DNA from: Pelagicoccus sp. SDUM812003
GTDB lineage: Bacteria > Verrucomicrobiota > Verrucomicrobiia > Opitutales > Opitutaceae
Direction: 5' to 3'
Assembly: GCF_031127815.1 (NCBI RefSeq)
Contig: NZ_JARXHY010000004.1
Location: forward strand, 62,001-126,000
DNA length: 64,000 bases
Each line of letters opens with the position of its first letter. Position 1 is the first letter of the stretch. The notes beneath the pieces were generated by a model. The model was given only the letters and a program-made list of their open reading frames with translations, searched no databases and was not told where the DNA came from. A program made the position numbers and the translations under genes. Of this stretch, positions 43,573-64,000 are shown in pieces.

Positions 43573-43647
43573 GGGGTCATAGTTCAACGGATAGAACAAG
43601 GGTTTCCTAAACCTTAGATCTGGGTTCGATTCCCGGTGGCCCTACCA
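43573..43647 (+). tRNA. tRNA-Arg (anticodon CCU)
   Basis: A full cloverleaf folds: acceptor GGGGTCA / TGGCCCT, D arm GTTC-AACGGATA-GAAC, anticodon arm AGGGT-TTCCTAA-ACCTT with anticodon CCT, a four-base variable loop and T arm CTGGG-TTCGATT-CCCGG. A discriminator A at 43644 and an encoded CCA (43645-43647) follow. It reads AGG. Its 3' end is the likely attachment site of the element to the right; the gene is intact after integration. An integrase starts 95 bases downstream. Confidence 0.97.
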
Positions 43648-43742
43648 TGATAATCAACGACTTAAGTTTGGTTGAGGGCTTTTCTCGCCAGCTATTTGCC
43701 AAACGGGATTGCCTTCTATAATAGAGCGGTATCAAATCGCAT

Positions 43743-45047
43743 ATGGCTGAATCAGGTACCGGCTTTCTAGAAAAATGGGAGTATCCGAAGAAGTCGGGCA
43801 TCTTCATTAGGCCCGTCATCTATTCGAAGGTCTACAAGGGTAAGGATACCCTCTACACGAGTTATCAGGTAGAGGTGCCAGCTGACGTCACGGGAACCGT
43901 TCGAAAGAGAAAACGCTGCAAGGACAAGGCCAAGGCAGAGGACTACGCCGCGAAGGAGCATCGAGGTTCTCGGAAGAATGGAGAGGTCTATTTCAATGCT
44001 ACGGAGAGCGAGAGGCTAGAGTTTGGAATCTGCCTGCCGAAGCTTCGCAAGAAAGGGATCAGCCTGAAGGAGGCCGTTGATTTCGCCCTCGTTCACCTGA
44101 GGCCTGAGGGTGGCGATAAAACCCTCAAGGAGGTTGTTGATGAATTGAACGCCTCAAGGAAGAAGCGTTTCGAGAGAGGGAATCTGCGAAAGACCTCCTA
44201 TGACGATTTCGCATGGAAGTCTAACCGACTTGCCGATTCTTTCCCAGACCTGCCTATCAATAGGCTTACCAAGGAGAATATCGTTGATTGGATCGAAGAC
44301 GTTGGAGGTTCTCCTCGGACCAACAAGAACTTTCTTACCGCCGTCGCGCAACTCCTCAAGTACGCTGTTCAGAGTCGGTACATCGTAGTTTCGCCGGTTG
44401 ATTACATGACTGACGAAGAGAGAAAAGCCCTTTGCGCCGACAACGATGACGATAAGGAACCCTCTATCCTCAGCATCTCTGAAGCTGAGAGGCTATTGAA
44501 CGCCGCGGTAGAACATCCGGAACTCAACATGCTGGGATCCGTTGTGTTGGGGCTGTTCTGCGGTATCCGAACTTCCGAGCTGAAACTTCTGACTTGGACA
44601 AGCGTTCGTGATGACGAACCGAACCCTTATGTCACGATCGCCTCCTCAATCGCGAAGAAGCGCCGAATCCGAAACGTTGATATCCCTAAGAACGCCCTCG
44701 AGTGGCTTAGCCTTTGTGACCGGCAGCACGATAGGGTCGCATACTCTCCGATAAATGACGACTTTCACAGGCGTTTCCGTACCCTGCGGATACACGCGGG
44801 ATTCGGAAAAAGCGTCGAAGGTAGATGGAAGTCGACCTGGGGAAACAACGCGATGCGACATAGCTTTGGAACGTACCATTTCGCTAAGCATGGTGACTCA
44901 ATGGAGACGTCTCGCCTGATGGGCCACAAGGGTAACGATGAGGTTCTGTTCTCCAATTATCGAGCGCTTGCGAAGAGAGAAGACGGCGTAAGGTTCTTCC
45001 AAATTAAACCCTCTCCCACTCAAGCCAAGGTAGTGAGCTTCGCCTGA
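43743..45047 (+). CDS. int: Tyrosine recombinase / integrase
   Basis: The 434 residues show the catalytic set of tyrosine recombinases: R276 (CGIRTSELKLLTW), R372 (MRHSFGTYHFA), H395 (LMGHKGNDEV) and nucleophile Y406 (SNYRAL). Residues 130-230 form the core-binding SAM-like domain (TSYDDFAWKSNRLADSF). The first ~90 residues, basic with a strand-rich pattern, may bind arm sites. Its position right beside the tRNA 3' end fits integration there. The stop overlaps the next ATG by one base (TGATG), so the downstream gene is translationally coupled. Confidence 0.93.
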   Translation: MAESGTGFLEKWEYPKKSGIFIRPVIYSKVYKGKDTLYTSYQVEVPADVTGTVRKRKRCKDKAKAEDYAAKEHRGSRKNGEVYFNATESERLEFGICLPKLRKKGISLKEAVDFALVHLRPEGGDKTLKEVVDELNASRKKRFERGNLRKTSYDDFAWKSNRLADSFPDLPINRLTKENIVDWIEDVGGSPRTNKNFLTAVAQLLKYAVQSRYIVVSPVDYMTDEERKALCADNDDDKEPSILSISEAERLLNAAVEHPELNMLGSVVLGLFCGIRTSELKLLTWTSVRDDEPNPYVTIASSIAKKRRIRNVDIPKNALEWLSLCDRQHDRVAYSPINDDFHRRFRTLRIHAGFGKSVEGRWKSTWGNNAMRHSFGTYHFAKHGDSMETSRLMGHKGNDEVLFSNYRALAKREDGVRFFQIKPSPTQAKVVSFA

Positions 45048-45607
45048 TGGATAACGAAGACAAAGAGCTCTTGCGGTCGATCTCGATCAGCATGTTGAGA
45101 ATTGAGAACGCATTGGATGCGATCCTTATGATGATGGCTTCAAAGTCCCAAGAAGACTCTTACGTGAAGATTTCTCAAAAGGGTTACTCTTCGTTTTGCG
45201 GGCATCTGAAAGCCGCGTCTTTCGCTAGAGGTTTTCAAATGGCTGAAGAGCAGGAGCTCTTGCTTCAAGAGTACGAAAGGCTCCCGGAAAAAGTGGATAT
45301 GACCGGTGACTTTTGGGATGGTGCTGACAGGGAGCCCAATGAGGAACGCACGTTCGGCGATTTTGTGAAACAGCTATCCGTCAAATATGGGTTTCCGAAG
45401 GGTAATCGAAACCTGAATACAAAGGTTCGCAAAATCATATTGGAAGCAAGTCTAAGTGGAGAACTGAAGACGACTGGTCAAATAGTGAAGTATCTGAAAA
45501 CTGAAGGATTTCGAGAGGCTAACCGAGTGATTCTAGACCGGTATTCCGCGAATCTTATTTATATGCATTTTTATAAGTCCGGAGCCCTTGACAAAGGAAT
45601 TTCATGA
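45047..45607 (+). CDS. Unknown protein coupled to the integrase
   Basis: The 186 residues are mostly helical in character, beginning with a heptad-like stretch (LLRSISISMLRIENALDAILMMMA) that could form a coiled coil. A charged middle (EEQELLLQEYERLPEKV) follows, and a basic C-terminal half (TKVRKIILEASLSGELKTTGQIVKYL). No signal peptide or membrane helix. It overlaps the integrase stop by one base and the next start by four (ATGA). I do not recognise the family; the linkage suggests a role in integration control or excision (inference). Confidence 0.6.
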   Translation: MDNEDKELLRSISISMLRIENALDAILMMMASKSQEDSYVKISQKGYSSFCGHLKAASFARGFQMAEEQELLLQEYERLPEKVDMTGDFWDGADREPNEERTFGDFVKQLSVKYGFPKGNRNLNTKVRKIILEASLSGELKTTGQIVKYLKTEGFREANRVILDRYSANLIYMHFYKSGALDKGIS

Positions 45608-46089
45608 CCGCTTTCGAATACACCGGCTTGGGGGATCCGCAGCTTTCGATCTGGCCAAGAAATGAACTTGGAAGTTTCGGTTTGAGGGGCTGGTTGATCG
45701 AGTTTCTTTCGGTTTGGTGGAGTCCGGAGACCAGCTGGTTACGAAAATTGGCTACTAGCGAATCATTATATTGTCTGCCTATGAAAAAACCAAAGGCAGA
45801 TGTGAAAAATGGTTCCTGTTGTGATTCCAAGTGCGGGGGGATTTGTAGCTTCCTCAAAGGTATCCTTGGTCGACTGGACAGGCTAATCTACACCCTCGAG
45901 TGCCTTCTACAGTTTAAGGACTATATGACGCATTCCGCCGCCGCAAAATATGTCTGCCTTAGTGAGCGCCAGCTTCACGAGTACAAGGATGCTGAGAAGA
46001 TTTCTTTTGCGCGGCTTGGTCGGAAGATTGTCTACCGTAAGAAGGATTTGGATACATTTATAAATGAAAGACTCAACCGATCTGAATAG
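45604..46089 (+). CDS. Excisionase-type helix-turn-helix protein
   Basis: The C-terminal ~60 residues are a MerR/Xis-like winged helix: THSAAAKYVCLSERQLHEYKDAEKI, then FARLGRKIVYRKKDLDTFI, the usual helix, turn and beta-hairpin wing of recombination directionality factors. A Cys-rich patch (SCCDSKCGGIC) and a helix come before it. The start at 45604 is supported by AAAGGAA at good spacing and the ATGA overlap with the previous gene; an internal ATG at 45781 would give a shorter, more typical form. It likely bends attachment DNA to direct excision. Confidence 0.7.
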   Translation: MTAFEYTGLGDPQLSIWPRNELGSFGLRGWLIEFLSVWWSPETSWLRKLATSESLYCLPMKKPKADVKNGSCCDSKCGGICSFLKGILGRLDRLIYTLECLLQFKDYMTHSAAAKYVCLSERQLHEYKDAEKISFARLGRKIVYRKKDLDTFINERLNRSE

Positions 46090-46996
46090 CGTTAGGGAGA
46101 CAGTTGCGAAAGACGAAGCTGGTAGTGAAACGGTTTTGAAGTCGCGCAAACTGAGAAAAAGCCCAGCTGCTAGGAAAGCTGAGACATGGAGGTCAAAGGC
46201 TCGACTCGATCAACTGACTGAAGAGATGTCTCGTTTCGTAGGAGATAGTCCTGGGGCAAAGGGGCATGCTTACAGTGAGGAGTATATTAAAACCGTTCTT
46301 GATGTTGCCAAAGCATCGACTGACTTTCTCAACAAGCTTGAACTCAGTGACCCTGAAGCTCTAAACGCAGCTATTGAGCTGGAGTCTGAATGGCCGGTTG
46401 TATTATCTGTCTTTGATCCGCCTAAGAGCCCTATCAAGTTGGAGTCAGGCAAGGAGGCATCTTTCCCGGACGGATTGCTTTCTAGGCTCAAGAGGAACGA
46501 TATTGGAGGAAAAAAAAAGGATCATCCCTTAACCAAGTTCATCAACAATTTGGACTTGAGCAAAATACTATCTAAGAGCGATTCCCCCGATGTCGGAGGT
46601 AAAAAATGGAGAAGCATATCGGATGGGCTTTGGGCGGAGATTCAGGCCTTGCCAGAGCTTCCGAAGAGCAAAGACGCCAAGGATTATGCGAGGGTGTTCA
46701 CTCGATATGTTTTTGAGGTGATGCCGAATTTTCATGAGTCTGATCATCCGTTGAAGAAGGCTGCTGAGAATAAAGCTAAAAAGGCACTCGCTGATGATCT
46801 TAAAAAAAAGAGCGATCGCTTGGATGAGCGAGAGAGGCAGGCTGAATTTTCCGATAACCCAGAGAAGGAGAGATTTCGAGTCGCCAATAAAAGGACAGAG
46901 ATCGAATCAAGTTCGACAGTCCCTGGAAAGAATCACTGGAGGAGAGGCTTGGAAGCCCTAATCTATGGTCACATCAAACCCAAATTGAAGCCGTAG
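46064..46996 (+). CDS. Unknown charged protein of the element
   Basis: The 310 residues are Lys-, Asp- and Ser-rich, with no membrane helix or signal peptide. The N-terminal 60 residues are basic (KSRKLRKSPAARKAETWRSKARLDQL), and residues 250-290 form a charged helix (NKAKKALADDLKKKSDRLDE). It overlaps the preceding gene by 26 bases, so it belongs to the same transcript. I do not recognise a domain. DNA or RNA binding is possible from charge alone. It is followed by the inverted repeat at 47035. Confidence 0.55.
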   Translation: MKDSTDLNSVRETVAKDEAGSETVLKSRKLRKSPAARKAETWRSKARLDQLTEEMSRFVGDSPGAKGHAYSEEYIKTVLDVAKASTDFLNKLELSDPEALNAAIELESEWPVVLSVFDPPKSPIKLESGKEASFPDGLLSRLKRNDIGGKKKDHPLTKFINNLDLSKILSKSDSPDVGGKKWRSISDGLWAEIQALPELPKSKDAKDYARVFTRYVFEVMPNFHESDHPLKKAAENKAKKALADDLKKKSDRLDERERQAEFSDNPEKERFRVANKRTEIESSSTVPGKNHWRRGLEALIYGHIKPKLKP

Positions 46997-47136: not shown

Positions 47137-47379
47137 ATGGCACGAAACACCGACACAAACAAACAATTGCCCAAAGGGCCTCTATTCGAACAGGACATTA
47201 GATCCAATCCACCTGCGAACCTATCTGTTGTAGAGTTCGCCCGCTACATCGGAATATGCGAGAAATCTGCTCGTGAAGCAATCGCTCGGCACGATGTAAG
47301 ACATGCCCGCATTGGTCGCCGCATCATCATCCGCAAAATCGATGCAGATGCCTACCTTGAATCTCTCGTTTGTGTTTAG
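47137..47379 (+). CDS. Excisionase/HTH_17-type DNA-binding protein
   Basis: The 80 residues contain one winged-helix DNA-binding motif: LSVVEFARYIGICEKSAREAIARHDV followed by ARIGRRIIIRKIDADAYLESL. This matches the Xis/HTH_17 group. A short polar N-terminal tail precedes it. It opens the second block of the element, after the inverted repeat. With the protein ending at 46089 there are two such factors; one may control excision and one replication (inference). Confidence 0.75.
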   Translation: MARNTDTNKQLPKGPLFEQDIRSNPPANLSVVEFARYIGICEKSAREAIARHDVRHARIGRRIIIRKIDADAYLESLVCV

Positions 47380-47642: not shown

Positions 47643-47966
47643 ATGAACGTATTTAAAAGGTGGTTACGAAATTGCCGCTCTTTCATCACTGAGCGGAAAC
47701 CTGCAAAGCCAAGGAGCGATGCAAGAAAGCCAGAGAGTACCAGCGATTCTGATTGGCAGATGCTGCTTGAAGCTAACGAGCGTCTTCTGAAGCGAAGAGC
47801 GGAGATCCAGGCGAAGCGAGAGAGGGAGGTGAAAGCTCATGCTGAGTGGCTGAAGCGACCGAACTCAAATTGCTACCCTATCCAAGAGCGAAAGGTAAAC
47901 CCGATCAAGCAACGCGCCGGAGTTGGCCCGAAGCGCATGGGAAGGATGTCGGAAGATGGCTGGTGA
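47643..47966 (+). CDS. Small basic protein, unknown
   Basis: The start MNVFKRWLRNCRSFITERK is set by AAGGAG seven bases upstream. The 107 residues are strongly basic with a long charged helix (LLEANERLLKRRAEIQAKRE) in the middle. No recognised domain. Its end overlaps the next gene by 11 bases, linking it to the replication block. Nucleic-acid binding is plausible by charge only. Confidence 0.6.
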   Translation: MNVFKRWLRNCRSFITERKPAKPRSDARKPESTSDSDWQMLLEANERLLKRRAEIQAKREREVKAHAEWLKRPNSNCYPIQERKVNPIKQRAGVGPKRMGRMSEDGW

Positions 47967-48741
47967 TTGGATAAAGATTGAGCATGCGACTTCGGACAAG
48001 CCCGAGGTATTCGAGATGGCAGGTATTCTGAACATCGATCCGGATGCCGTAGTTGGGAAGCTGTTACGGGTGTGGGTCTGGTTCGATCAACACACTGAAG
48101 AAGGTAACGCTCCGGTAACGGTCTCGGCGTTACTAGATCGTTTGTCTGGCGTGAACGGTTTCGTTAGCGCGATGGCCAAGGTCGGATGGATCGAAACTGA
48201 CAGCGAAAGAGTCCGTTTGCCTCACTTCGATCGTCACAATGGGCAAACTGCTAAGCGACGGGCACTTAACGCAAGAAGAGTGGCCAAGCATAAGCAAAAA
48301 GGTAACGCGAACGGTAACGTTGCCAGCGTTACTTCTGCGTTACCTAGAGAAGAGAAGAGAAGAGAAGATAAAGAGAGAGGTGCGAAAACGAACAATCGGA
48401 CCTCAAGTAGATCGAATGATAGCCCACAAAAGGCGAACAAGGCGCGTCCTAATTCGCAGGATGAAGTAGAGTCGTTCTGCGAAGACAATGGTCTCAAGCG
48501 GTCAGATGGTGAGTACATGTTCAATCATTGGGAGGGGAACGGGTATCGGAACAATGGCGTTCCCATCAAGTGCTGGAAATCTGTAATCCGCAGTTGGAGG
48601 ACGGGAGGCTTTTTCCCAAGCCAGAAGGCCAACGGAGCTGCTCCGCGACTGACTTTCAATGAGGAGGCCGAGCAGCGAAAGCGAGAACGTGAGAAACTAG
48701 AACTCACTAGCGAATTCGAGAAAGCGGGGCCTAGACGATGA
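47956..48741 (+). CDS. Phage-type replication initiator / helicase-loader-like protein
   Basis: The first ~105 residues (MAGDWIKIEHATSDKPEVF, then VVGKLLRVWVWFDQHT and the W-I-E-x-D stretch near GWIETDSERVRLPHFDRHN) look like the winged-helix N-terminal domain of phage replication proteins that precede DnaB genes. A disordered, basic linker follows (HKQKGNANGNVASV and onward). The C-terminal segment SQDEVESFCEDNGLKRSDGEYMFNHWEGNGY resembles the DnaD/replisome-organiser helical end, with a conserved final KCWKSVIRSWR. The stop overlaps the helicase start by four bases (ATGA). Role inferred: origin binding and helicase loading. Confidence 0.7.
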   Translation: MAGDWIKIEHATSDKPEVFEMAGILNIDPDAVVGKLLRVWVWFDQHTEEGNAPVTVSALLDRLSGVNGFVSAMAKVGWIETDSERVRLPHFDRHNGQTAKRRALNARRVAKHKQKGNANGNVASVTSALPREEKRREDKERGAKTNNRTSSRSNDSPQKANKARPNSQDEVESFCEDNGLKRSDGEYMFNHWEGNGYRNNGVPIKCWKSVIRSWRTGGFFPSQKANGAAPRLTFNEEAEQRKREREKLELTSEFEKAGPRR

Positions 48742-50129
48742 GCGAGAGTGGAAACAAGGTGCTTCGCTGGCTTGGCGCTGAGCAGTCCGATGTCGCTGAA
48801 ACTCAAGTGCTGCGAATGGTCGTCTCACACCCTGACGGTCATGCCAATTTCGAGACTCTACATACGCTCGGGATCAGGCGCGAACATTTCGCCAACCCAC
48901 ACGCGAGGGTCGTATTTGAAGCCGCTCGCAGGGTTCATGAGGAAAAGAGAGTCGTATCTCTGGAAACGGTTTTCGCCGCGGCTGGAGCAATGGACAGCAA
49001 GGAGCTATGCGATTGGATGCTGGATTTGATGGATGGCGATTCCCCTTCTTCAGAGTACCTTGATTCAGTCGCAGCTCATCTGATCGACCTGAGAAGCCAA
49101 AGACGCGTCAAGGAGATCCAGTCGAAGATTGACGAAGCGAACGAGTCAGAGGCGACCTGGGAGGAAAAGAAGTGCAAGCTCGCGGAGTTGAACCATGAAC
49201 TCTCGGTTTTGACGAAACCCGCGGTAGAAAGGAAGCAGGACCCTTTCGAGATGATCGGTGAGGAATTCGAGGCCCGGGATAAAGGCGAGAAGCCCAAAGA
49301 TTCCAAGCCGATCTACACTGGAATGTCCGAGTTCGACAAATGGCTGAGGCCGATCGATCTAAGCACAGCGGATTACTACACGATCATTTTCGGCGTAAGC
49401 GGAAATGGTAAGAGCTCGATTGGACATCAGATGTTTGGCGAGTCATTGAGGCGTGGATACAGGTGCGCCGCTTTCCTTGGAGAGGTCACGGCTGATCAGA
49501 TGATCAAGGCCATGGCTTCGCAAGTCGCCCGGCTGGATTTGCTTAACTATGAAATGGAGCTGAAACCGAGGCAGGATCGATTCAAGCGTAACCTGAAGGG
49601 GTTGAAGGATCTTTGGCAGGAAAGGATGTTCATCTATGACGACAATTTCGTCATCGAAGAGATTGTCAGAAGGTGCCGCTCTATCGCGAAGAACGTTGGT
49701 AAGCTGGATATGGTGCTGGTCGACCATTTGCACCAATTAAAGACCCTTCAGAAATTCCCGGACGAGCGCGTTCGCTACAACTACATGTCCAGCCTCTTCA
49801 AGCCTCTAGCCATGGAGCTGAGATGTCCTGTTATCGTCATAGCGCAGCCAAGTCGCGGACTGAAAAGCGAGAACAGGAAACCGAGAGTCAGTGATTTGAA
49901 GGAGACGGGCAATCTGGAGGACGATGCTGATCGCATATGGGGAATCTACATTCCCGAAAAGGACAGCAACGGGGTTGAGCAATTCGAATCGCTGGATCCG
50001 GAAGGGATTATCTACCAGCTCAAATTCAAGAAGGGCCACCAAGGATCGGCTCGCGTCAAGTTTCATAAGCGATTCACGCTTTTCGAAGACTGGAAACAGG
50101 AGCGGCAAGAGGAAGGGAGGCTATTGTGA
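48738..50129 (+). CDS. DnaB-type replicative helicase of the element
   Basis: Residues 1-130 form a DnaB N-terminal-like helical domain (ETQVLRMVVSHPDGHANFETL, FANPHARVVFEAARRVHEEK). The RecA-like motor follows, with Walker A FGVSGNGKSSIG and Walker B MVLVDHLHQL, then SRGLKSENRKPRVSDLKETG and LEDDADRIWGIY, the H3/H4-like DnaB blocks. It should unwind element DNA during replication after excision. At 463 residues it is typical in size. It overlaps both neighbours by a few bases. Confidence 0.85.
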   Translation: MSESGNKVLRWLGAEQSDVAETQVLRMVVSHPDGHANFETLHTLGIRREHFANPHARVVFEAARRVHEEKRVVSLETVFAAAGAMDSKELCDWMLDLMDGDSPSSEYLDSVAAHLIDLRSQRRVKEIQSKIDEANESEATWEEKKCKLAELNHELSVLTKPAVERKQDPFEMIGEEFEARDKGEKPKDSKPIYTGMSEFDKWLRPIDLSTADYYTIIFGVSGNGKSSIGHQMFGESLRRGYRCAAFLGEVTADQMIKAMASQVARLDLLNYEMELKPRQDRFKRNLKGLKDLWQERMFIYDDNFVIEEIVRRCRSIAKNVGKLDMVLVDHLHQLKTLQKFPDERVRYNYMSSLFKPLAMELRCPVIVIAQPSRGLKSENRKPRVSDLKETGNLEDDADRIWGIYIPEKDSNGVEQFESLDPEGIIYQLKFKKGHQGSARVKFHKRFTLFEDWKQERQEEGRLL

Positions 50130-50563
50130 TGTATTGGGAAAATGGATTCGATGAATCTCCGTTGAGCTCTCTTTGGAAGCCCATAGACGTGAACGATTCA
50201 GAGATTTCGATTGTATCGACCTGCCTGGTCGATCCCCGCTTCGCGAAGCAGGTCCTGATCGATGAGAATATTAACGAATCCTGTTTTGAGAGCCGTGATG
50301 CTAGAATAGCCGCCACAGCAATTCGCAGTCTTCACGCCTCTGGTTTGGAGGTTTGCTATCAGTCATTCTTCGACCAGATGGAACGACAGGGTGTGAAAAT
50401 TGAAGAAGCTTCCGAAATTCTGACGGAATTGATGGCGGTCGGAGATGAGTACACTGAAGAGGGATGCTTCGAGATATCGCTTGTGCGAGGGTTGAAGCAT
50501 TTGAGACTGCGTAAGAGCATTGTGGATACGAATAAGCCTGATGTGACGGGTGAGAAGAAATAA
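50129..50563 (+). CDS. Stand-alone DnaB N-domain-like protein
   Basis: The 144 residues lack an ATPase core but resemble the helical N domain of DnaB: SEISIVSTCLVDPRFAKQVLIDENINESCFES, then ARIAATAIRSLHASGLEVCYQSFFDQMERQ and LTELM, the helix order of the dimer-forming collar. The ATG at 50129 follows GGGAGG; a GTG three bases earlier is also in frame. It starts at the helicase stop. It may modulate the helicase ring or compete with the host DnaB collar (inference). Confidence 0.65.
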   Translation: MYWENGFDESPLSSLWKPIDVNDSEISIVSTCLVDPRFAKQVLIDENINESCFESRDARIAATAIRSLHASGLEVCYQSFFDQMERQGVKIEEASEILTELMAVGDEYTEEGCFEISLVRGLKHLRLRKSIVDTNKPDVTGEKK

Positions 50564-56500: not shown

Positions 56501-57557
56501 ATTCGCCGCTCGGCTTCTTCTGCCCTATCTGGCAATCCAGATGTGGAACAACTCCGACGAGCGCGAGGAGCTGGAGAAGACGCTCAGCGAGCACGACCGC
56601 CGACGCCTTCATATCGTTCTCGGAAAGGACGACGAGGGGAAGACCATCGTGGTCTACGCCCCGACCGCTCTCGGCGACATCGCCGAATGGTTCGGAGGCA
56701 ACGACATGGCCCGCATCGCCGGCGAGATGTACCGCGGCGAGATCGATTTCGCCCAGGGGCTTGAAAGCTGGATGAAGGGCAGACCGGGAGATCTCGGAAA
56801 CAAGGTGCTCCAATCAGTCGGTCCTGTATTGAAAATCCCATACACGTACCTGTCCAAGCAGTACTCGTTTCCGGATGCGTTTGATCAGCGATCGATTCCC
56901 GAGTATGAGATTCTTCCGGTCATCATCGGTCAGGCTTCTGATCAGTTCGCCGTGGACTTGATTCGCCGCATTGTTGATGAGGACTATTACCCGATCAAGG
57001 ATCTGGGAGACTGGGCTCAGCAGCTCATTCTTCAGCGTCGCAAGCGCGATCCTGAGCAATGGGCCTACTACTCGATTAGGGACAAAGCCAACGACTTCAT
57101 GTCGAAGCATGGGAAGTCGTTCGACCCCGGAGTCAACAACAGCGAAGACGCCCAGCTTCTGCGATCGTTTCGCAAGGCGATCTACGATGGGGACGTTCGC
57201 CTCGCTTCAAAGTTCTACCTGCAGCTTCTCGACCACGGCTACACCTACGAGAGGTTTCAAGCGAGTTTGAGATCGCAGAATCCTCTGTCTTTTGTGCCGA
57301 AGCGTGATGGGCTCAGACGCAAGTTCGTCGAAGACCTCACGCCATGGGAAAGGGAACAACTTGATTTGGCTTTTGCCTACTACGCGAAGATAGGCGACGC
57401 CCGCGGAAGCGAGAGGTTTCTTTTCCCTTCGAACAGAAAGCTCCAGAGCAGATCAGCGTTCGAACCAGAGCTGGATAGACTGCGGAAAGTAGTCGACCAG
57501 CAGCTAGAAAACGACCGAGAGGCGCTAGCGAAGCGGCTTCTGAAACAGTCTCTATAA
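50583..57557 (+). CDS. Giant polyvalent protein (zincin, ADP-ribosyltransferase-like, LPD38-like)
   Basis: One frame of 2324 residues. Residues 1-130 are disordered with repeated FDPDxYL motifs. Residues ~240-360 are Ala/Gly-rich and hydrophobic (LAATIPASLAGPVGTAAAAG), possibly membrane-active. Residues ~480-660 form charged coiled coils. A metallopeptidase motif HEWTH lies at 817-821 (ILDHEWTHALERTD). From ~966 to 1228 comes an ART-PolyVal-type ADP-ribosyltransferase-like domain (Y968-HGSPHRFDRF, Y995-GWGMYFAGNKEVAEYY, ending in YNYVIFDDADVEI). A long helical region follows, then an LPD38-like part (~1738-2110: KLFLPWNYIRYEYGN, YGAIGYNGNQLRQHMIPFYSW). Such proteins occur in phages and conjugative elements and may travel with the DNA into the recipient. 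GC content is mosaic across the gene. Confidence 0.85.
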   Translation: MSKTREQNGQPAESESEDSLVGYLEKRNKNRFGGIPVEKGQLYPLKKYIDRKEEEKFDPDTYLAKKSGFDPSQPFTIEKESQPFDPFAQGLAIEDRSSNTGFDPDAYLSSKKPETGTFEGLAGSLNRGALQAEEGLRAAAIESDLGSFRGDDIPRLTAEREQLEAIDQAPLSWEDRFRQKVELARAKTLENAAIRGQERAGRNIDTQASRIAEIQDLKAKTAMTQAYRDYVEGEDWFAAFKRNPIEVSANLMLESLVGSSPTLAATIPASLAGPVGTAAAAGIGGGMQERSALMLELLQKDYQVDLSDPQQLKDAFTNPEIMADVTSRASQGGAIVGAAEGLSGGVAGKLVPGAGSGVKRLVGGVAADQAAQAAIEGGGEATKQLVVNDEIDGREVFSEVVGGRAADSVETALNVSQRVPDERRRAKIEQLRQENDQRIGEKPSAVRDNAPRELEFVDGSKGTFTPADPDADPFESSLSPEARQRVDEDRKLRNEKRLVQEYGLSPEELERTTEDAKARYLSMTPEEVKIERDLQAKRVEENRQAEQARLEAQIEQDRRRKLEQKERIRQERAEIKRLESEGVNADGQLDYELLDDDRLSTLANQDDEQAQREIMRREDERAYNREPGDEIQRRVAKAGKLLSPRKAQELFNDPLVGELQRLQKARPGLFSDSGRPLGTMLDILKNDDGFTQLSDEIGLIDALEESIGGREMFPDASDDVPFSASPQGDPMPDLQRAARQFASEGGSQIQFQEAQAQGNDQAAVANEARRLGLELRFFRRTDGQRSPVNGFYDPQSGRVWIEQGANRETAYQAILDHEWTHALERTDPESYRRLVDYFQQSAPKASEAAWLQYREDARRGGAPASKSLRESEGTAKLAELVSSSARGFKDDAYWTDLAISQPTLIDRIIDAVNRVLKRVSNRVQDKRINSELAKATLAFRRTLERAKANAAERSQNANTGDVQFAAAYHGSPHRFDRFTTAKIGTGEGMQSYGWGMYFAGNKEVAEYYKKALTEGRGLRARDVAARLLESLPDTMSLQEKEQSVIEELERRRDRSTNPEFIERMNSAIEATRNGLTGAFYTVDLKPSEDEYLLWDKQMTEQSDKVREALSIDTDTFSVEPDGRQWKVVNDRTGEIVSKGWNNKNTANRMASMGVSQKGEAYYATLAAKLGNEQRLGINRAKEAASKYLRSLGIRGIKFLDQGSRQDGEGSYNYVIFDDADVEITDIRFSRSSDRIQELRTRLDDLTRQIEELEAKGDAMTYRDTAKLRNLLGQRSEARVELIDAERFNDTDETTDAPTNEQETIDLITDPAIIRTGTATLEKEPSGKSILKDIYKVAWKGWRRFTELNEDPKWQRFKEQIADLERSGEIIREEVNRNIEYILDPVNRGREDVGADLQKDYQIISKRLQQAMNAGKSTADLQKKVTDAYNRMIEAPYRLFRQLVIFQDLKVRAAMVNPTTGKPLALPNKLTPEQVEKQLAALVKKLRNHKDRANVQEAMRRHYDAMEKDRQLLESFGYEIPPDQNNPYYYPHKVIEYEMSRLPQPKFLSDKPFRGYLQELTGSDKDIDSDYLQAVYSHMYEVRLHNQQQRTFEEGVKPYDIADKVLKQAQEREDREAAMQKRKARKFNRNMIREENLPEGYVKHALDINTPMRLADVIDREALAKELGVQISSEQPLMRQLFQMGVDAKLTPEMLSRALVASPKRIVVIPKELSQQIRTMIRQQDAPESFVGRTAKSFNRFWKFTKLFLPWNYIRYEYGNTLTDLEKLLSGDPRVYQLLGQAHREVVEFMKTGKGGVNVRQAFRNGVFDTVTQQEIEALPKLKAFENFTPSGEQWKGQLEDLWKGTAKISRYREALFRYAKFLSAVEAYENGAYPKYQGAYSKEVEAMTDTYQGAGDAMYRKAGKISRETFGDYGAIGYNGNQLRQHMIPFYSWIEINFRYHRNILRNYRDLMQNGRFEDAKGVRYHGAAMAAGFAARLLLPYLAIQMWNNSDEREELEKTLSEHDRRRLHIVLGKDDEGKTIVVYAPTALGDIAEWFGGNDMARIAGEMYRGEIDFAQGLESWMKGRPGDLGNKVLQSVGPVLKIPYTYLSKQYSFPDAFDQRSIPEYEILPVIIGQASDQFAVDLIRRIVDEDYYPIKDLGDWAQQLILQRRKRDPEQWAYYSIRDKANDFMSKHGKSFDPGVNNSEDAQLLRSFRKAIYDGDVRLASKFYLQLLDHGYTYERFQASLRSQNPLSFVPKRDGLRRKFVEDLTPWEREQLDLAFAYYAKIGDARGSERFLFPSNRKLQSRSAFEPELDRLRKVVDQQLENDREALAKRLLKQSL

Positions 57558-57560: not shown

Positions 57561-58040
57561 ATGACCAACAGAACGAAGGATAACATCGGCCCCCTGTATT
57601 TTATGCCAGCACCTAAAGGAAACGAATATTTGAAGCTTCGGAAGAGCAACGGTACCAAGCCGAAGTTTGATGACCCCGAAGAATTTTGGGATAAATGCTG
57701 CGAGTATTTCGAATGGGTTGAGGCGAATCCGATCATCGAGAAGCGGTCCATCAAGGTTCGAGACGTGTCAACGGAAGTGGAAGTCAACCTCGTCCGCCCG
57801 ATGTCGCTTGCCGGCCTGCTTGAGCATATCGGATTGGATGAAGATGGTTTTGAACGGATAGGAAAGATCGACGGATATGCCTACTTCTTCGAGAGAGCAA
57901 AGTCCGTTATCTATGTTCAGACATTCGAGGCCGCTGCCGCGGGGCTGATTTCGCCAGAAGATGTGGCCTGGGAAATGTCAAAGGGCGACGAGTATGGCGC
58001 AGCGAAAAGCCCAAAGGAGGGAGAGCATGTCGGCTCCTAG
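57561..58040 (+). CDS. Small terminase / DNA-packaging protein (gp3-like), first copy
   Basis: The 159 residues match the phage DNA-packaging gp3-like group: APKGNEYLKLRKSNGTKPKF, PEEFWDKCCEYFEWVEANPI, MSLAGLLEHIGLDEDGFERI with a helix-turn-helix character, and AKSVIYVQTFEAAAAGLISP. These small terminase subunits recognise the packaging site and recruit the large subunit. It starts three bases after the giant gene. It aligns over its length with the next gene, sharing CE(Y/F)FEW, (S/T)L(A/S)GL and VIYxQxFE. Confidence 0.75.
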   Translation: MTNRTKDNIGPLYFMPAPKGNEYLKLRKSNGTKPKFDDPEEFWDKCCEYFEWVEANPIIEKRSIKVRDVSTEVEVNLVRPMSLAGLLEHIGLDEDGFERIGKIDGYAYFFERAKSVIYVQTFEAAAAGLISPEDVAWEMSKGDEYGAAKSPKEGEHVGS

Positions 58041-58527
58041 AGGAAACGAGTTCTGGAAGTCTCGCAGCAAACACGGGAGAAATTTTCTCTTCGCGACCCC
58101 CGAGAAGCTGTGGAATGCGGCTTGCGAGTTCTTCGAGTGGTGCGACGACAACCCGTGGCTGAAGAAGGATTTCAAGGGCAAGGACTGTAAGGAGGTAGAT
58201 CTGCCTACCCAAAGACCTTACACGCTCTCTGGGCTATGCTTCTATCTGCATTGTTCCGAATCCTATTTCAGGCAGTTCAAAAGCGAGCAGACAGGGAAGG
58301 ATCATTCTGAAGGTTTTCTGACGGTCATTGAGGATATCGAGGCAGTGATTTACACCCAGAAGTTCGAGGGAGCCGTGGTAGGCGCGTTCAATGCGAATAT
58401 CATCGCGAGAGAGCTAGGTCTAGCGGACAACCAGAACATCAAGCACGACGTCAGCGAGGAGCTCGCCACGCGACTAGCCAACGCCCGCAAGCGGCTTTCT
58501 AAACCAGAGGAGACCGACTCCCTATGA
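58027..58527 (+). CDS. Small terminase / DNA-packaging protein (gp3-like), second copy
   Basis: The start MSAPRGNEFWKSRSKHGRN is fixed by AAGGAGG six bases upstream. The 166 residues repeat the blocks of the previous protein: PEKLWNAACEFFEWCDDNPW, YTLSGLCFYLHCSESYFRQF, EAVIYTQKFEGAVVGAFNANIIARELGLADNQ. The C-terminal piece matches the family better than the first copy does. The genes overlap by 14 bases. Two diverged small terminases side by side with no large terminase nearby suggest the element redirects a helper's packaging motor, perhaps recognising different helpers (inference). Confidence 0.8.
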   Translation: MSAPRGNEFWKSRSKHGRNFLFATPEKLWNAACEFFEWCDDNPWLKKDFKGKDCKEVDLPTQRPYTLSGLCFYLHCSESYFRQFKSEQTGKDHSEGFLTVIEDIEAVIYTQKFEGAVVGAFNANIIARELGLADNQNIKHDVSEELATRLANARKRLSKPEETDSL

Positions 58528-58577: not shown

Positions 58578-59705
58578 GTGCCCAAGAAGAGCAAAAAGGA
58601 CTTAATCAGGCTGATCGATTGGCCCAGTGACGAAAAGCTTCAAGCGATGCTCGAGGAGGAAGTCCCAAGCTCAATCGCTCGGAGAATTAGCGTAAAAACG
58701 AAAGACCTGCTAGCCTATTGCAGGAAATGCCGGATTCGAGTGCCTGAAGAGGAGTACTACTTCAAGCTCGATAGGCTGCTCGCTTCTTCTGCTGATAGGA
58801 GGATTGTCAGAAAGCCCAGAAAGACGCTTCAATGGCCTTTGCCTGCTCCATCTATTGCAGACTGGCAGGAGGATCTCATAGAGCTTTCAAGGTACTGTAA
58901 GGCAGGGGATGTCTACCGGGTCGAAGATTGGATATCCTTGGGATTGCCCATCCAGTACTTCAGGCGCGATGAGGAACTCGTCCGCGAGCTTCGTAAGTCT
59001 CCCCTTGTTTATGCGCTTGAGTCAGGCCACTATTCAGTCTGCGAGCTGCTCCTGTTGAACGGATTCGACCCGATGGCAGATGAGACATTTCACGCGAACA
59101 GACTGTTCGAATCCAGGCGACACGATCTGATCCACCTTCTATTGGATTTCGGTTGGTGGGACGACGATCTGGAGGCTGGCGAGGTTCTTTCGACGTACAA
59201 CAAGAAGCTGGCTCTCCGACTGTTCTCGATGGGGTGGAATCCTTGTCGAGAAAACCAGCTAGCAGAGTCTCTGAATTGGACGCGAAACTACGCTCCCATC
59301 GCTGGGATCGTGAAGGAGCTAGTGAAATTGGATCCCGAGCGAATCCGGCCGCAACTCGACATGGCGTTGGCTGGGGAGATCAGGGATCGGAACCTATCCA
59401 AAGCCAGGAGCTTGCTTCACATGGGAGCTCGCAAGAAGTGGAAGGCGGTCGAGATTGAACAGCAGGGTTTTCGTCGAGGCCATCCGCTTTGGGAAGCCAT
59501 CCACACAGGGAGGGCGAAGTTCTGGAATCTATTCGAGTTAGACTACTCGGATGTCGATCCGGTTTACTTGCTGAAGTTCGCTCTTTCGGAAGGGAATGAT
59601 GAGGTCTTCGATAGCATGGTAGCTGGTTTCCGGCGCTATGGACAGCTTGACGACATGACCGATCAAGCAGTCCGATTCGAAGTGGAACGAGCCCTGGCCG
59701 ACTAG
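58578..59705 (+). CDS. Ankyrin-like repeat protein, unknown
   Basis: A GTG start gives MPKKSKKDLIRLIDW. The middle of the 375 residues shows ankyrin-like helices, best in SPLVYALESGHYSVCELLLL followed by NGFDPMAD and in RHDLIHLLLDFGWWDDD. The N-terminal 80 residues are basic. No catalytic motif and no signal peptide. It is the first cargo gene past the packaging pair, 51 bases downstream. Ankyrin proteins mediate protein contacts; in mobile elements they are sometimes linked to defence or counter-defence, but nothing here proves that. Confidence 0.55.
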   Translation: MPKKSKKDLIRLIDWPSDEKLQAMLEEEVPSSIARRISVKTKDLLAYCRKCRIRVPEEEYYFKLDRLLASSADRRIVRKPRKTLQWPLPAPSIADWQEDLIELSRYCKAGDVYRVEDWISLGLPIQYFRRDEELVRELRKSPLVYALESGHYSVCELLLLNGFDPMADETFHANRLFESRRHDLIHLLLDFGWWDDDLEAGEVLSTYNKKLALRLFSMGWNPCRENQLAESLNWTRNYAPIAGIVKELVKLDPERIRPQLDMALAGEIRDRNLSKARSLLHMGARKKWKAVEIEQQGFRRGHPLWEAIHTGRAKFWNLFELDYSDVDPVYLLKFALSEGNDEVFDSMVAGFRRYGQLDDMTDQAVRFEVERALAD

Positions 59706-60053: not shown

Positions 60054-60284
60054 ATGAGTCTGGACATCGAATCGGTGAAAAAGCGGCTTGGGGAAGTTGT
60101 GAAGGAAAAAAGGGAGCTCTGCGGACTCTCTCAAACCAAGCTAGCCGAACTCTCGGGGATTCACAGAACTCATGTGGCGGGCGTAGAAAGCGGAGGTAAA
60201 AACCTCACTGTTGAGAGTCTTCTGAGACTCTCTGAATCACTCGGAACACTCCCTTCTAAGCTGCTCAAGGAATCTGGTTGCTAG
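60054..60284 (+). CDS. XRE-family helix-turn-helix regulator
   Basis: The 76 residues form a lambda-Cro/C1-type helix-turn-helix: VKEKRELCGLSQTKLAELSGI, HRTHVAGVESGGKNLTVESL, LRLSESLGTLPSKLL. Small C-protein-like repressors of this type control mobile elements, restriction systems and toxin-antitoxin pairs. It is the likely user of the twin TTGTAG-N8-CTACAA sites and thus self-regulated (inference). Downstream lie the unknown gene and the Panacea gene on the same strand. Confidence 0.85.
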   Translation: MSLDIESVKKRLGEVVKEKRELCGLSQTKLAELSGIHRTHVAGVESGGKNLTVESLLRLSESLGTLPSKLLKESGC

Positions 60285-60377
60285 CTAATGCTCTCCATTC
60301 GTTGAGAATTGGATGGATTTAATCTCTTGCTCCCTTTCTTGGAATCTGTTGCCACTCTACCGACTCATTCGAAATCC

Positions 60378-60986
60378 ATGCAACTCCTAGTCCAAAATTG
60401 TAACCTAGTAATCGCGGGAGGCTGGAATCCTCACATAGTTTTGCAGCCAAACTGGTTAAGAGAGTTCCTATTTCCTGATGTCGAGGACTTCGAAATCGAA
60501 TCTTTTGGGATTGGACCCATCATCAATCCGACAGTCAAAGCGGGGAACTACGTTATTTCCTCAAATGGGTCGAGATTGACGATTGGTAATAGAAAAGACC
60601 ATGTTAATTGGGAAGATGGACTACAGGATGTCGCAACCAAGGTAGCTAACTTTTTGCCCCATACCCCAGTATCTGCGGTAGGATTCAATTACGATGTTGA
60701 ATTCACAAAAGAAGAAGTTGGGGATCTGAAGTACGAATCGCCATTTGGTCATGCGGTAGATTCTCCTAGTCTAGAGATGCAATTTCATGAATCATTTGAT
60801 TTAGGAACCGGACAGCTAAATGTTCGACTCATAGTGCACGAGAGTGGGCCTAACCCATTGCTAAAGGTGAACTATCACTACCCGATTAAGAAGATCGCAG
60901 GCGTAAAAGCGATTTTAGATGAAGCGTCGGTGTTGGAGCAAAGGAACAAAGCTGAGGAGTTGGCTAGTCGGATTTTAGAAAAATGA
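60378..60986 (+). CDS. Unknown protein next to the Panacea gene
   Basis: The ATG at 60378 gives MQLLVQNCNLVIAGGWNPHIV; an in-frame TTG at 60309 would add 23 residues. The 202 residues look like an alpha+beta cytosolic protein with no catalytic signature I can name. Its stop overlaps the Panacea gene start by four bases (ATGA), so the pair is coupled. By position it could be a third component of the toxin-antitoxin module, but this is guesswork. Confidence 0.6.
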   Translation: MQLLVQNCNLVIAGGWNPHIVLQPNWLREFLFPDVEDFEIESFGIGPIINPTVKAGNYVISSNGSRLTIGNRKDHVNWEDGLQDVATKVANFLPHTPVSAVGFNYDVEFTKEEVGDLKYESPFGHAVDSPSLEMQFHESFDLGTGQLNVRLIVHESGPNPLLKVNYHYPIKKIAGVKAILDEASVLEQRNKAEELASRILEK

Positions 60987-61576
60987 TGGAGTTTTCAACA
61001 AATTCTGAGCGAGACGAAGAGCCAGGAAGTCTCTTTTTCGATTGTCAGGACCCCACAACCTCGAGCGACCTGACCCCGGAGACTTGGGGCCATTTTGTGA
61101 CAAACAGTAGCGGGAAGTTTCAGAAGGTATCCCCAGAGAAAAACAGGATACCATCAGCCTTGGATGTGGCGGCGTACATCGTAGAACGTCTAGGAGAAAT
61201 TAGCACTATGAAGCTTCAGAAGCTGGTTTACTATAGCCAAGCATGGAGCCTTGTTTGGGATGAAAGGCCTTTGTTCAAAGAACCCATTGAAGCTTGGGCG
61301 AATGGACCAGTAGTTAGAGATTTATACGACTACCATAGGGGGGCGTTTTCGATTGGAAGCATTCAGACCGGAAATCCCAATCGGCTGGACAGCACTGCTC
61401 GAGAGACCATCAACGCGGTTTTGGACTTTTATGGAAACAAGTCAGCTCAGTACCTAATTCAACTCTCTCATTCAGAAGAACCCTGGCTGAACGCTCGGAA
61501 GGGGCTAAAGGATGGAGAGCGGGGTAGCAGATTGATACCGAACTCGTTCATTGCTGAGTATTATAGTAGCCTCTAG
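60983..61576 (+). CDS. Panacea (SocA/DUF4065-type) domain antitoxin
   Basis: After a ~55-residue variable N-terminus comes the Panacea domain: ALDVAAYIVERLGEISTMKLQKLVYYSQAWSL in pieces, the EPIEAWANGPVVRDLYDYHRG motif, and the C-terminal helix LIQLSHSEEPWLNARKGL. These proteins neutralise many unrelated toxins (PanA-PanT pairs), and the original SocA adapts a toxin to ClpXP. The product ends at a stop that precedes the next ATG by five bases, the usual spacing for a PanAT operon. Confidence 0.82.
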   Translation: MMEFSTNSERDEEPGSLFFDCQDPTTSSDLTPETWGHFVTNSSGKFQKVSPEKNRIPSALDVAAYIVERLGEISTMKLQKLVYYSQAWSLVWDERPLFKEPIEAWANGPVVRDLYDYHRGAFSIGSIQTGNPNRLDSTARETINAVLDFYGNKSAQYLIQLSHSEEPWLNARKGLKDGERGSRLIPNSFIAEYYSSL

Positions 61577-61581
61577 GGGCG

Positions 61582-62001
61582 ATGGCTAAAAAAAAGTCAC
61601 CCAAAATCAAAAGCGATCCTCTTCCTTCAAAGCAACCTAGAGTCGCTGTGAAAGTCGAAGCAGGCGGGAAGCCTTGCTGGAGTTTCAGTCGGTTGGATTG
61701 GGACGGGCCCTTTGGGTGGTCAAAAGCTCCGTTTGAAGAAGTCGTACGCAAACTAGGCAGTACCGAGCAGATGGAGTGGAATGACATCCTCAAAAAGTCG
61801 CATCCCATACACATCTCTAAACTGTCGAAAGCGGCTCAAGATAGGCTTCGAGAGCTAAGAAATGAGGATATAGAAGAACTGTTTTCTTTAAGGATAACGG
61901 GCCCAAAGAGGATTTTTGGAATTCGAATAGGAGACCTAATTCGAATTATGTGGTGGGATCCCAACCATTTAGTGTGCGTCTCCCACCTTAGACATACTTA
62001 G
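61582..62001 (+). CDS. Putative toxin partner of the Panacea antitoxin
   Basis: A basic N-terminal tail (AKKKSPKIKSDPLPSKQ) precedes a compact domain with CWSFSRLDWDGPFGW and ending IFGIRIGDLIRIMWWDPNHLVCVSHLRHT. The closing strand-His pattern recalls small RelE/HigB-like folds, though I cannot assign one. At 139 residues and five bases after a Panacea gene, it sits exactly where the toxin is expected. Its activity is unknown. Confidence 0.6.
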   Translation: MAKKKSPKIKSDPLPSKQPRVAVKVEAGGKPCWSFSRLDWDGPFGWSKAPFEEVVRKLGSTEQMEWNDILKKSHPIHISKLSKAAQDRLRELRNEDIEELFSLRITGPKRIFGIRIGDLIRIMWWDPNHLVCVSHLRHT

Positions 62002-62461: not shown

Positions 62462-62958
62462 ACTCCACTGATATTCTTCAGTCGTTGGGCATTCTTACCG
62501 TGTTCTTGACATTTGTAGGAACTGTTTGGATACAGGAGCAACGTAGGAGGCACGACTTGTTGCGTGAGAAACTTGAAGCACTGATAGAACACTTGCACAC
62601 TATCGCTTGGGCGCCTTTTCAGGTCTCTGTCGAGCTTTCAGATGCCAAGTGGGATTCTGATCCTGATTCGGTGTTGAGCCGAATTCGGATTTTAAACGAG
62701 GCAGGGTTTTCGAATTATATCCATTCGGTTAGTCGGTCTATCTCGATCGCTGATGTCTACTTTCACCGATATTCGAGGGATTTGTATGAACTAGCAGATC
62801 GTGCTCACGCGCTGCAGAACTATGTGAAGAATGGAGACCTTGATTCTTTCCTCGATACGCTCAAACCCACTATGAACAAGGCGGGTTCTATGCTTGAGGC
62901 AATTCACAAGGATTTTGCTTCGATAACCAAATCAACGCACATTCCAAGCGAACTGTAG
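62458..62958 (+). CDS. Membrane-anchored protein, unknown
   Basis: One N-terminal helix (ILQSLGILTVFLTFVGTVWI) is followed by a 145-residue cytoplasmic helical part (QEQRRRHDLLREKLEALIEH). It is coupled to the preceding membrane protein by an ATGA overlap and lies nine bases before the DUF2806 gene. This trio may act together. I do not recognise the family. Confidence 0.55.
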   Translation: MNSTDILQSLGILTVFLTFVGTVWIQEQRRRHDLLREKLEALIEHLHTIAWAPFQVSVELSDAKWDSDPDSVLSRIRILNEAGFSNYIHSVSRSISIADVYFHRYSRDLYELADRAHALQNYVKNGDLDSFLDTLKPTMNKAGSMLEAIHKDFASITKSTHIPSEL

Positions 62959-62967
62959 TCGATCACT

Positions 62968-63984
62968 ATGGATGATAATAGAACAAGATCGATCAATAGC
63001 TTCCTGGACACAATCAGTGCTGATCTAGGGAGCCTTTACAAGCCCAAGGCTATTTCTGAAAAGCTAGTGAATGTCGAAAGTTTGGATAAAACCGTCAGCG
63101 AAATCCAAAGCTCAGAAACCCTTTCGAGAGCCCAGAAGAGGCTCGCAATGCAAGAGGCTAGACGGCAGGTCAATATCGATTCCGTGGTCGAGAAAAGCCT
63201 TGAGGAGATTTCTGAAGAAATTCCGAGTAAGCAGATGGATCCTGATTGGATCGCGAGATTCTTTCAAGAAGCTAAAGATACATCAGATGAGGATGTACAG
63301 AGTATTTGGGCAAAGGTTCTCGCTGGTGAATATGAGAACCCTGGGAGTTTCTCGAAGCGCGCTTTGAGTATGGTGAAAGACCTCTCCAAAGAGGAAGCCG
63401 AAGAGATCCAGACAGCAGCCTCTAGGGTATGGGAGGTTGAGCTTTCGGACGGCTCTAAAGTGAAGTACCTGAACGTTCTAATCGTAGACAAATGGTCTCT
63501 CGGCACAGGGTATGATGAAAGCACCCCATTTGTTGCTGATTACAAGGGCGTTTGTCAGCTCCTACAGGATTGCGGTTTTCTGCACTCGGACGATTTCCAG
63601 TTCCATTTCTCGGGAGAAGGCTATCTTGACCCCGAAAAATATCGGCTTGGTGATAGTTCGGCCAAGGCTTTAACCTTCTATGACAAAAGGTTGGTCGCGC
63701 GAACGAATCAACCAGGGTTTTTAAAGGACGAGGGACCGACCGTCACTGAAGATGGAAGGCCTAAAAGCAATACCTGGCAGCGGCAGATCTTTTTCGATGC
63801 TTGGAGGCTGACAAGAGAGGGTGAGGCTCTTTTGAGGGTTATTAAAGCGAAGCCAGACCTTGCTCTATTCCAGAAGATCTCAGAGGTGCTCGAAGAAAGA
63901 GGATTCTCTTATGACACGGTTATTCTGAATGAATCGGACCCTGAAGAAGGCTATGAGAGATCTGGTCATAATGCTTCCGCTTAG
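62968..63984 (+). CDS. DUF2806-type protein
   Basis: The block DPDWIARFFQEAKDTSDEDV, then QSIWAKVLAGEYENPGSFSKRAL and MVKDLSKEEAEEI, is the mark of DUF2806: an acidic W-x-x-x-F helix, a QxxWAxxLAGE motif and PGSFS. The N-terminal ~90 residues are charged and helical; the C-terminal part is alpha+beta with RRFxxxL-like ends. The function is unknown; such proteins turn up in mobile elements and defence-rich loci. It is last in a short operon with two membrane proteins and ends 16 bases before the window edge. Confidence 0.7.
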   Translation: MDDNRTRSINSFLDTISADLGSLYKPKAISEKLVNVESLDKTVSEIQSSETLSRAQKRLAMQEARRQVNIDSVVEKSLEEISEEIPSKQMDPDWIARFFQEAKDTSDEDVQSIWAKVLAGEYENPGSFSKRALSMVKDLSKEEAEEIQTAASRVWEVELSDGSKVKYLNVLIVDKWSLGTGYDESTPFVADYKGVCQLLQDCGFLHSDDFQFHFSGEGYLDPEKYRLGDSSAKALTFYDKRLVARTNQPGFLKDEGPTVTEDGRPKSNTWQRQIFFDAWRLTREGEALLRVIKAKPDLALFQKISEVLEERGFSYDTVILNESDPEEGYERSGHNASA

Positions 63985-64000
63985 GGTTTCTTGAATCCAA

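Follow-up and report, generated by a model that had tools for sequence, protein, structure and literature searches.

According to the accessible part of the literature, known phage satellites bring small terminases (TerS), scaffolds, capsids or tail parts of their own. Gram-negative phage-inducible chromosomal islands (PICIs) are, in the accessible sections of their description (PMC6092414), bounded by attachment (att) sites and encode an integrase, an AlpA-type regulator, a replication module and in some cases TerS, with no structural or lytic genes. Here we describe an element of similar composition, integrated at tRNA-Arg(CCT) in a 64,000-nucleotide stretch of the 5.75-Mb draft genome of Pelagicoccus sp. 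SDUM812003 (bases 62001-126000 of contig NZ_JARXHY010000004.1; hereafter the window, contig C4 and genome G000). As an exception to the absence of virion genes, it encodes a 2,324-aa polyvalent protein (PVP) homologous to a phage virion-operon gene. With a probability of roughly 0.55, judged from sequence, the element is a helper-dependent, PICI-like, TerS-encoding phage satellite of Opitutaceae that supplies its own virion-ejected protein.

The combination of integrase, replication module and master transcriptional regulator that characterizes PICIs is found in the element on a single strand, if one of its two HTH_17 proteins is the master regulator, as we infer. In contrast to PICIs, it has a DnaB helicase plus an initiator, two TerS and the PVP, and no helper is known. 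The phage-inducible chromosomal minimalist islands (PICMIs) of Vibrionaceae, as far as the available text of PMC10803314 describes them, likewise have an integrase with an overlapping downstream gene, and their AlpA is defined by PF05930 or PF12728, the latter being matched in the element; PICMIs also adjoin fis and carry a DUF3987/DUF5906 primase, features that the element does not share. The main text of that paper is without the word terminase, and its available part mentions no PVP.

The phage polyvalent proteins (PMC5512222) and the DarB-like gp69 of podovirus JC1 (PMC9144972) are, in the accessible portions of both papers, giant multidomain proteins that end a virion module. The class has metallopeptidase- and ART-type (ADP-ribosyltransferase) domains, and the likeness of our PVP to its LPD38-type C-terminal part is by fold only; the element PVP differs in that its gene has no virion genes around it and belongs to an integrative element that has a TerS of its own. 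Capsid-forming PICIs (cf-PICIs) and the Streptomyces satellites MulchRoom and MiniFlayer supply part of their own particle, as the element would; according to the available part of PMC10690885 they provide capsid, portal and terminases, whereas the element would bring only TerS and an ejection-type protein. In the accessible portions of the open-licence literature searched, we found neither a satellite with a giant injected protein nor a phage-satellite study in Verrucomicrobia.

Integration site and backbone of the element

The bounds and backbone genes are as follows (window coordinates; G571 is a genome of another genus, and G001-G007 are genomes of the same genus as G000).

43573..43647, + strand: tRNA-Arg(CCT), the integration target (ARAGORN; empty-site comparison), its 3' end with CCA supplied by the element
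43625..43644, + strand: attL core, exact 20-bp repeat
43743..45047, + strand: tyrosine integrase, 434 aa (PF00589 5.4e-07; phrog_1 1.5e-27; 53% to the G571 integrase)
45604..46089, + strand: HTH_17 (AlpA/excisionase-type) protein (PF12728 4e-06, 27.4 bits against a cut-off of 27)
47137..47379, + strand: second HTH_17 (AlpA-type) protein (PF12728 2.8e-07; homologues adjoin related integrases)
47923..48741, + strand: phage-type replication initiator (rep), N-terminal part like phage 'primosomal protein I' (phrog_2509 8.5e-63)
48738..50129, + strand: DnaB-like replicative helicase (PF03796 4.2e-30; phrog_19 1.2e-45)
50583..57557, + strand: PVP, 2,324 aa (Pfam ART-PolyVal 7.3e-04, below its cut-off)
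57561..58040, + strand: TerS1, diverged P22 gp3-type small terminase paralogue (PF16677 1.7e-12; phrog_606 2.3e-29)
57961..58527, + strand: TerS2, P22 gp3-type small terminase (PF16677 3.4e-27; phrog_606 6e-47)
C4:126108-126127 (L004:1108-1127; window equivalent 64108-64127): attR core, 108 bp beyond the window

The att core TTCGATTCCCGGTGGCCCTA, which is the 3' part of tRNA-Arg(CCT), has a single further exact copy within the 100 kb that were examined (C4:105001-205000), with about 4e-5 chance matches expected for a 20-bp core in the search range. The element thus measures 20,483 bp between its att cores and ends 127 bp past the window, in agreement with a preliminary description of this DNA that had proposed an integrative element at tRNA-Arg and pointed to the right of the window for a second copy of the tRNA 3' end. 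The cut made by the window had left room for an ordinary complete prophage with virion genes farther on; its probability is now practically nil, since attR follows so closely, no portal, capsid or large terminase (TerL) set precedes it, and the genes after it resemble host metabolism (read from sequence, without profile search), with no phage gene visible. The tRNA-Arg(CCT) site of the eight genus genomes is occupied by the element in G000 and by another island in G002, and lacks the element's integrase beside it in the six others, the kind of empty site that the earlier description had suggested looking for. In G004, G005, G006 and G007 the same 20 bases are followed by G and other sequence, and in G001 and G003 the tRNA is present with one core base changed; no integrase homologue was found by tblastn in the 20 kb fetched around the tRNA of these six congeners. 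The sequence CCATGATAATCAACGACTTA after the core is absent from all six congener sites and is contributed by the element.

Two further observations concern this site. At locus L083 (G006:C6:5218000-5237999), the tRNA 3' core occurs at 901 and again at 1135, 234 bp downstream, and the second copy with its similar flanking sequence looks like the scar of an earlier insertion. The G002 island (L087, G002:C6:373300-393299, from 792) has a related integrase and genes that, read from sequence, resemble type I restriction-modification; a 28-bp core that matches is found on a different contig, G002:C7:39523-39550.

The gene order on the + strand is integrase, 186-aa gene, HTH_17, 310-aa gene, HTH_17, 131-aa gene, rep, DnaB, 145-aa gene, PVP, TerS1, TerS2 and an ankyrin-like gene. 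Profile matches bear out the integrase, excisionase factors, helicase-centred replication block and packaging proteins reported earlier, the packaging proteins being the two TerS homologues. Scans of 20 ORFs with Pfam and PHROGs (E<=1) gave no match to TerL, portal, capsid, tail, lysis, relaxase or type IV secretion system (T4SS) families, which upholds the claim that no large terminase, portal, capsid or tail gene is present. Between rep and TerS2, the spacing of adjoining genes is 3-19 nt where they do not overlap, and their overlaps are at least 4 nt long; such tight packing speaks for an operon kept by selection and not for the scar of a deletion. Residues 12-141 of the replication initiator are 63% identical to proteins of Xanthomonas phages. 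Among 80 viral loci retained of 96 with relatives of this initiator, a DnaB match (E<=1e-4) was present in 3 of 80, and neither TerS nor PVP was found in the 80; searches with the ankyrin-like protein and the integrase found no relatives in viral contigs.

Polyvalent proteins occur in conjugative elements too, according to the available part of PMC5512222, and the element could accordingly be a mobilisable or conjugative one with a PVP of that kind. We consider this highly improbable, since relaxase, T4SS and coupling protein are all absent from the Pfam scans of the 20 ORFs and the PVP relatives with readable context lie among phage genes or in shell-less elements; moreover, LPD38, a domain considered below, is reported in that part of the paper only from phage-type polyvalent proteins. 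A conjugative element was rejected on the absence of any conjugation gene, the other finding that might have overturned the preliminary description.

The polyvalent protein in phages and shell-less elements

In the PVP, a HEWTH motif at residue 817, whose likeness to metallopeptidases is confined to the motif, precedes an ART-like region (residues ~960-1225) with homologues in four viral records, three of them aligned; a helical C-terminal region (1392-2324) comes next and is conserved in proteins of phage virion operons. The Pfam ART-PolyVal match is below cut-off in the element and just above it in viral record G620, and an LPD14 match in a phage PVP is below cut-off. The C-terminal ~930 aa are 38-40% identical to three viral proteins. 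In phage BK063671, whose host is given as Methanomicrobiales, a protein with the ART region is encoded two genes after an annotated internal virion protein. A fold search with the C-terminal part gave 22 matches to viral proteins (E 1.3e-20 to 3.9e-04), with nothing in PDB at E<=0.001; the fold model of the ART region (pLDDT 53.8) is too low for use. By this comparison the C-terminal part may belong with the large polyvalent proteins; an LPD38 assignment is not confirmed.

PVP relatives were found in 5 IMG/VR contigs by sequence and in 18 by alignment, those 5 included. In GTDB contigs the single-sequence search found no relative and the alignment search found three loci; in 57 relatives and in 387 genomes of the phylum (its own included) the PVP was present in its own genome only. 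A profile of 20 sequences detected PVP in 7 of 252 genomes of the family, so the earlier scarcity reflects in part sampling and sensitivity.

PVP lies beside virion genes in the relatives G615-G620 and G502, and not in the element. It follows the virion operon in contiguous sequence in five of them (viral records G615, G616, G619 and G620, and the prophage in G502), and in G617 and G618, where the linear contig breaks inside the operon, the same order requires a circularly permuted record. Profile matches identify TerS (phrog_51, E 0.001 in G615 and 1.2e-06 in G618), TerL (phrog_2, G615) and the major head protein (phrog_1357, 2e-36, G615), and the portals of these phages were called from sequence and homology. 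The G502 prophage (G502:C100) is complete, spans 39.8 kb between tRNA-Arg(CCG) repeats in the order attL-int-...-virion operon-PVP-attR, no gene lying between PVP and attR, and implies that PVP phages infect the same bacterial family; this sole PVP prophage read sits at tRNA-Arg(CCG), not at tRNA-Arg(CCT). As a separate observation, G615 (L147-L149), a viral contig of 51.8 kb, has two dissimilar late gene blocks that each encode a giant protein; it would be chimeric, or hold a second element next to a phage.

The context of PVP is readable in four of the seven family genomes (G000, G608, G444 and G502), the gene lying at a contig end in G501, G587 and G593. In G608, of another genus, 39-bp repeats that represent part of a tRNA-Ser gene enclose an element of 18.8 kb, which encodes an integrase, primase- and helicase-like proteins, a coiled-coil-like ORF placed as in the phages and a 2,961-aa PVP open frame. 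G444, also of another genus, has an 8.9-kb element between 47-bp tRNA-Gly repeats that codes for an integrase, PVP and a small membrane protein (phrog_3996). The PHROGs scans gave no match to a TerL, portal, head or tail family in G608 (8 of 10 non-PVP ORFs of at least 110 aa) or in G444 (both non-PVP ORFs). The earlier proposal, of a satellite whose largest product is a giant polyvalent protein, is therefore broader than was noted, with two more shell-less PVP elements in other genera.

For comparison of virion genes, 14 query proteins were run by tblastn against 18 records or loci, and TerL, portal or major capsid protein was matched in seven, G615-G620 and G502; the queries came from four of these (G615, G618, G620 and G502), and the independent matches are G616, G617 and G619. 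There was no match in G000, G444, G621 or seven 20-22-kb loci with distant PVP (L050, L052-L055, L057 and L058), and in G608 only the coiled-coil query taken from G608 itself was matched. Absence in this comparison alone is weak, because the L055 record has a Terminase_6N match; it is firmer for G000, G608 and G444, where it is backed by the PHROGs scans. In these three elements the PVP frame is open and no other virion gene was found, and an intact longest gene argues, as far as sequence can, for selection on PVP. The C-terminal part is common to all; G608, G444 and G502 showed no ART-like region, a pattern expected if a conserved core is combined with varying effector parts. These elements (8.9, 18.8 and 20.5 kb, in three genera) may represent an Opitutaceae class of shell-less integrative elements with PVP as the hallmark beside the integrase, which would hijack helper particles, replace or supplement the injected protein of the helper and deliver their own effectors with the DNA; the odds for this wider proposal fall somewhat short of even.

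Small terminases, helper and alternatives

TerS2 covers profile positions 1-105 of the 105 in PF16677, matches P22 gp3 (PDB 3p9a) over residues 1-142 of 162 (8e-28), a full-length match to the family, and can be aligned over its whole length with 15 viral relatives (31-57% identity); a start at 58027 fits the alignment better. TerS1 is 29% identical to TerS2 and departs from the viral relatives near the C-terminus. Among the ORFs listed for eight viral TerS loci, read from sequence starts, a terminase-like ATPase ORF directly follows TerS in seven, and an ATPase-like ORF comes 1.5 kb later in the eighth. In the element this usual phage TerL place is occupied by a 375-aa weakly ankyrin-like protein without an ATPase match. 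PF16677 was matched in 4 of 252 family genomes at E<=1e-3, two of them over cut-off (G000 and G571), and in 6 of 387 phylum genomes, four over cut-off.

The divergence of TerS1, the toxin-antitoxin-type cargo of the right arm, and the restriction-modification-like island that accompanies a related integrase at the same tRNA in G002 would all suit a chromosomal anti-phage or host-interference island, integrative and unpackaged, in which the TerS paralogues and PVP, along with the Panacea pair described below, spoil phage packaging by acting as decoys or regulators. We find such an island quite improbable, since the initiator and the DnaB helicase favour autonomous amplification and TerS2 is conserved along its length.

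The locus in G571 bears on the history of the element. At its tRNA-Arg(CCT), which adjoins the same rpsR- and Sua5-like genes (read from sequence), G571 has an integrase (53%), HTH_17 and TerS without PVP, and its left-end bases are nearly equal to those of the element: CCATGATAATCAATGACTTA. This element is degenerate: its integrase gene is interrupted by a stop, its TerS frame is broken and transposase-like remnants are present. Its attR was not found, and PF03237 and phrog_2 detected no TerL in G571. An integrase-TerS backbone therefore exists independently of PVP. The third-position GC of PVP is 0.75, against 0.42-0.67 in other element genes (PVP genes of three viral contigs, 0.67-0.77; three host genes, 0.76-0.79), a composition unlike that of its neighbours and consistent with later acquisition; PVP has probably joined an older integrase-plus-TerS backbone. 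At L093 (G571:C1:252001-272000), a second broken gp3-type TerS at 9197-9699 lies by transposase-like and large ATPase-/methylase-like genes, with no TerL visible nearby (read from sequence).

The main rival to the satellite reading is an internally deleted, defective prophage, in which a PVP phage integrated, lost its virion block and left a remnant that is no longer packaged. One internal deletion of a G502-like order would yield the G444 type (int, small membrane protein, PVP) and the G608 type, which weighs against a satellite, and the composition of PVP is like that of the PVP genes of viral contigs. However, PVP as the longest gene is the largest target for decay, yet it is open in G000, G444 and G608, where other virion genes were not found; in G000, TerS1 begins 3 nt after PVP and is followed by 6 kb of other genes, not by attR; the TerS type and integrase of the element are unlike those of PVP phages; and the int-TerS backbone occurs without PVP in G571. 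We therefore consider a defective prophage rather unlikely.

The satellite reading is fitted by the integrase, the AlpA-type regulators, the replication module, TerS without TerL and the empty congener sites. In the mechanism that we propose, helper infection would lead to excision of the element, which would replicate with its own initiator and DnaB; TerS2 would mark its DNA for the large terminase and procapsid of the helper; and PVP, as the satellite's own version of the protein encoded at the virion-operon end in related phages, would be taken up into the particle and leave it together with the DNA, after which its metallopeptidase-like and ART-like parts may act on the recipient cell. Concatemer packaging is considered a possible mode for PICMIs in the available text of PMC10803314; the element has 0.51 of the G502 prophage length, and a headful dimer would fit such a head, a matter of arithmetic and no evidence of packaging.

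A number of observations weigh against this interpretation. No helper was found in the host genome, which has no TerL by PF03237, by A6 (a profile from PVP-phage TerL) or by phrog_2. PF03237 is a weak test: it recognized 1 of 11 virus records and none of nine bacterial genomes, and it failed on G615 and G617-G620, although TerL was detected there by other comparisons. A6 matched 4 of 252 family genomes, none in the host genus, and phrog_2, with no match in G000, gave weak ones in G002 (E 2.8e-5) and G005 (1.8e-4). PVP phages carry phrog_51/641-type TerS, not the gp3 type, and gp3-type TerS and PVP occur together in no other locus compared, so that the two proteins do not jointly suggest any single known helper. 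In G621 and G622 (records L158, L159 and L012), PVP is divergent to rep-DnaB and is not in the virion operon; the terminase genes there resemble the P27 type (read from sequence). At 20.5 kb the element exceeds the PICI size criterion of 12-15 kb, as given in the accessible part of PMC6092414.

The LPD38 assignment is a further weak point. Confidence in the model of the PVP C-terminal part is moderate (pLDDT 66.6), TM-scores of its matches are at most 0.34 by query length, and five of the 22 best matches are named large polyvalent protein associated domain, one of them LPD38, for which the element PVP has no Pfam match. An hhalign comparison with the C-terminal part of BcepIL02 gp70 gave E 0.08, against 0.69 for the N-terminal control; this DarB-like protein was picked because its kin JC1 gp69 carries LPD38. 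JC1 gp69 itself, a giant at the end of the virion module, was detected in purified virions by mass spectrometry with 51 unique peptides, according to the accessible part of PMC9144972. Finally, excision, packaging and transfer of the element are predicted from its gene content. The preliminary description had spoken of an element that looks like a packaged phage satellite: the satellite part agrees with gene content and empty sites, and packaging stays a prediction, no TerL having been found in the host genome by three profiles and the phages that share its PVP having another TerS type.

Accessory genes, related integrases and implications

The remaining genes of the element are listed below.

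45047..45607, + strand: 186-aa ORF, start overlapping the integrase stop by 1 nt
46064..46996, + strand: 310-aa protein (no Pfam match; weak PHROG matches of unknown function)
50126..50563, + strand: 145-aa protein in the operon (no match in Pfam, PHROGs or NCBIfam)
58578..59705, + strand: 375-aa protein with a weak ankyrin signal (Ank_3 0.0027, below cut-off)
60054..60284, + strand: Cro/C1-type HTH regulator (PF01381 7.6e-13)
60983..61576, + strand: Panacea-domain (antitoxin-type) protein, cargo (PF13274 8.8e-18)
61582..62001, + strand: 139-aa protein, possible Panacea partner (phrog_8366 9.9e-08; 5-bp spacing)
62968..63984, + strand: DUF2806 protein, last gene before attR (PF10987 2.1e-33; TIGR03899 1.8e-30, below its cut-off)

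The 131-aa ORF (47571-47966) has no match in NCBIfam, the sole profile set applied to it. The right arm comprises a small minus-strand gene, the Cro/C1-type regulator, a 225-aa gene, the Panacea protein and its neighbour, two small genes and the DUF2806 gene. The regulator, the 225-aa gene, the Panacea protein and the 139-aa phrog_8366 protein form a tight cluster (60054-62001) that looks like toxin-antitoxin cargo.

The integrase family was found in 28 of 252 family genomes at E<=1e-30, beside various tRNAs, with a DnaB homologue in two of the loci read. Of 73 listed ORFs beside related integrases, 60 were scanned; the other 13 were taken for probable host genes or spurious frames. The matches listed (25 of 87 families) contain no TerL, portal or capsid; they do include tail-fibre, tail and virion-structural families with two members each, at least partly collagen-like proteins. 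At L135 (G464:C4:74001-94000), several collagen-like genes (7645-9625) lie downstream of a related integrase at tRNA-Gly.

If the proposed satellite reading is true, satellites would compete with their helpers not only for heads but also for what enters the next cell first, and the injected activity could, for example, be anti-restriction or host-modifying. The element would also extend TerS-type satellites to the Opitutaceae.

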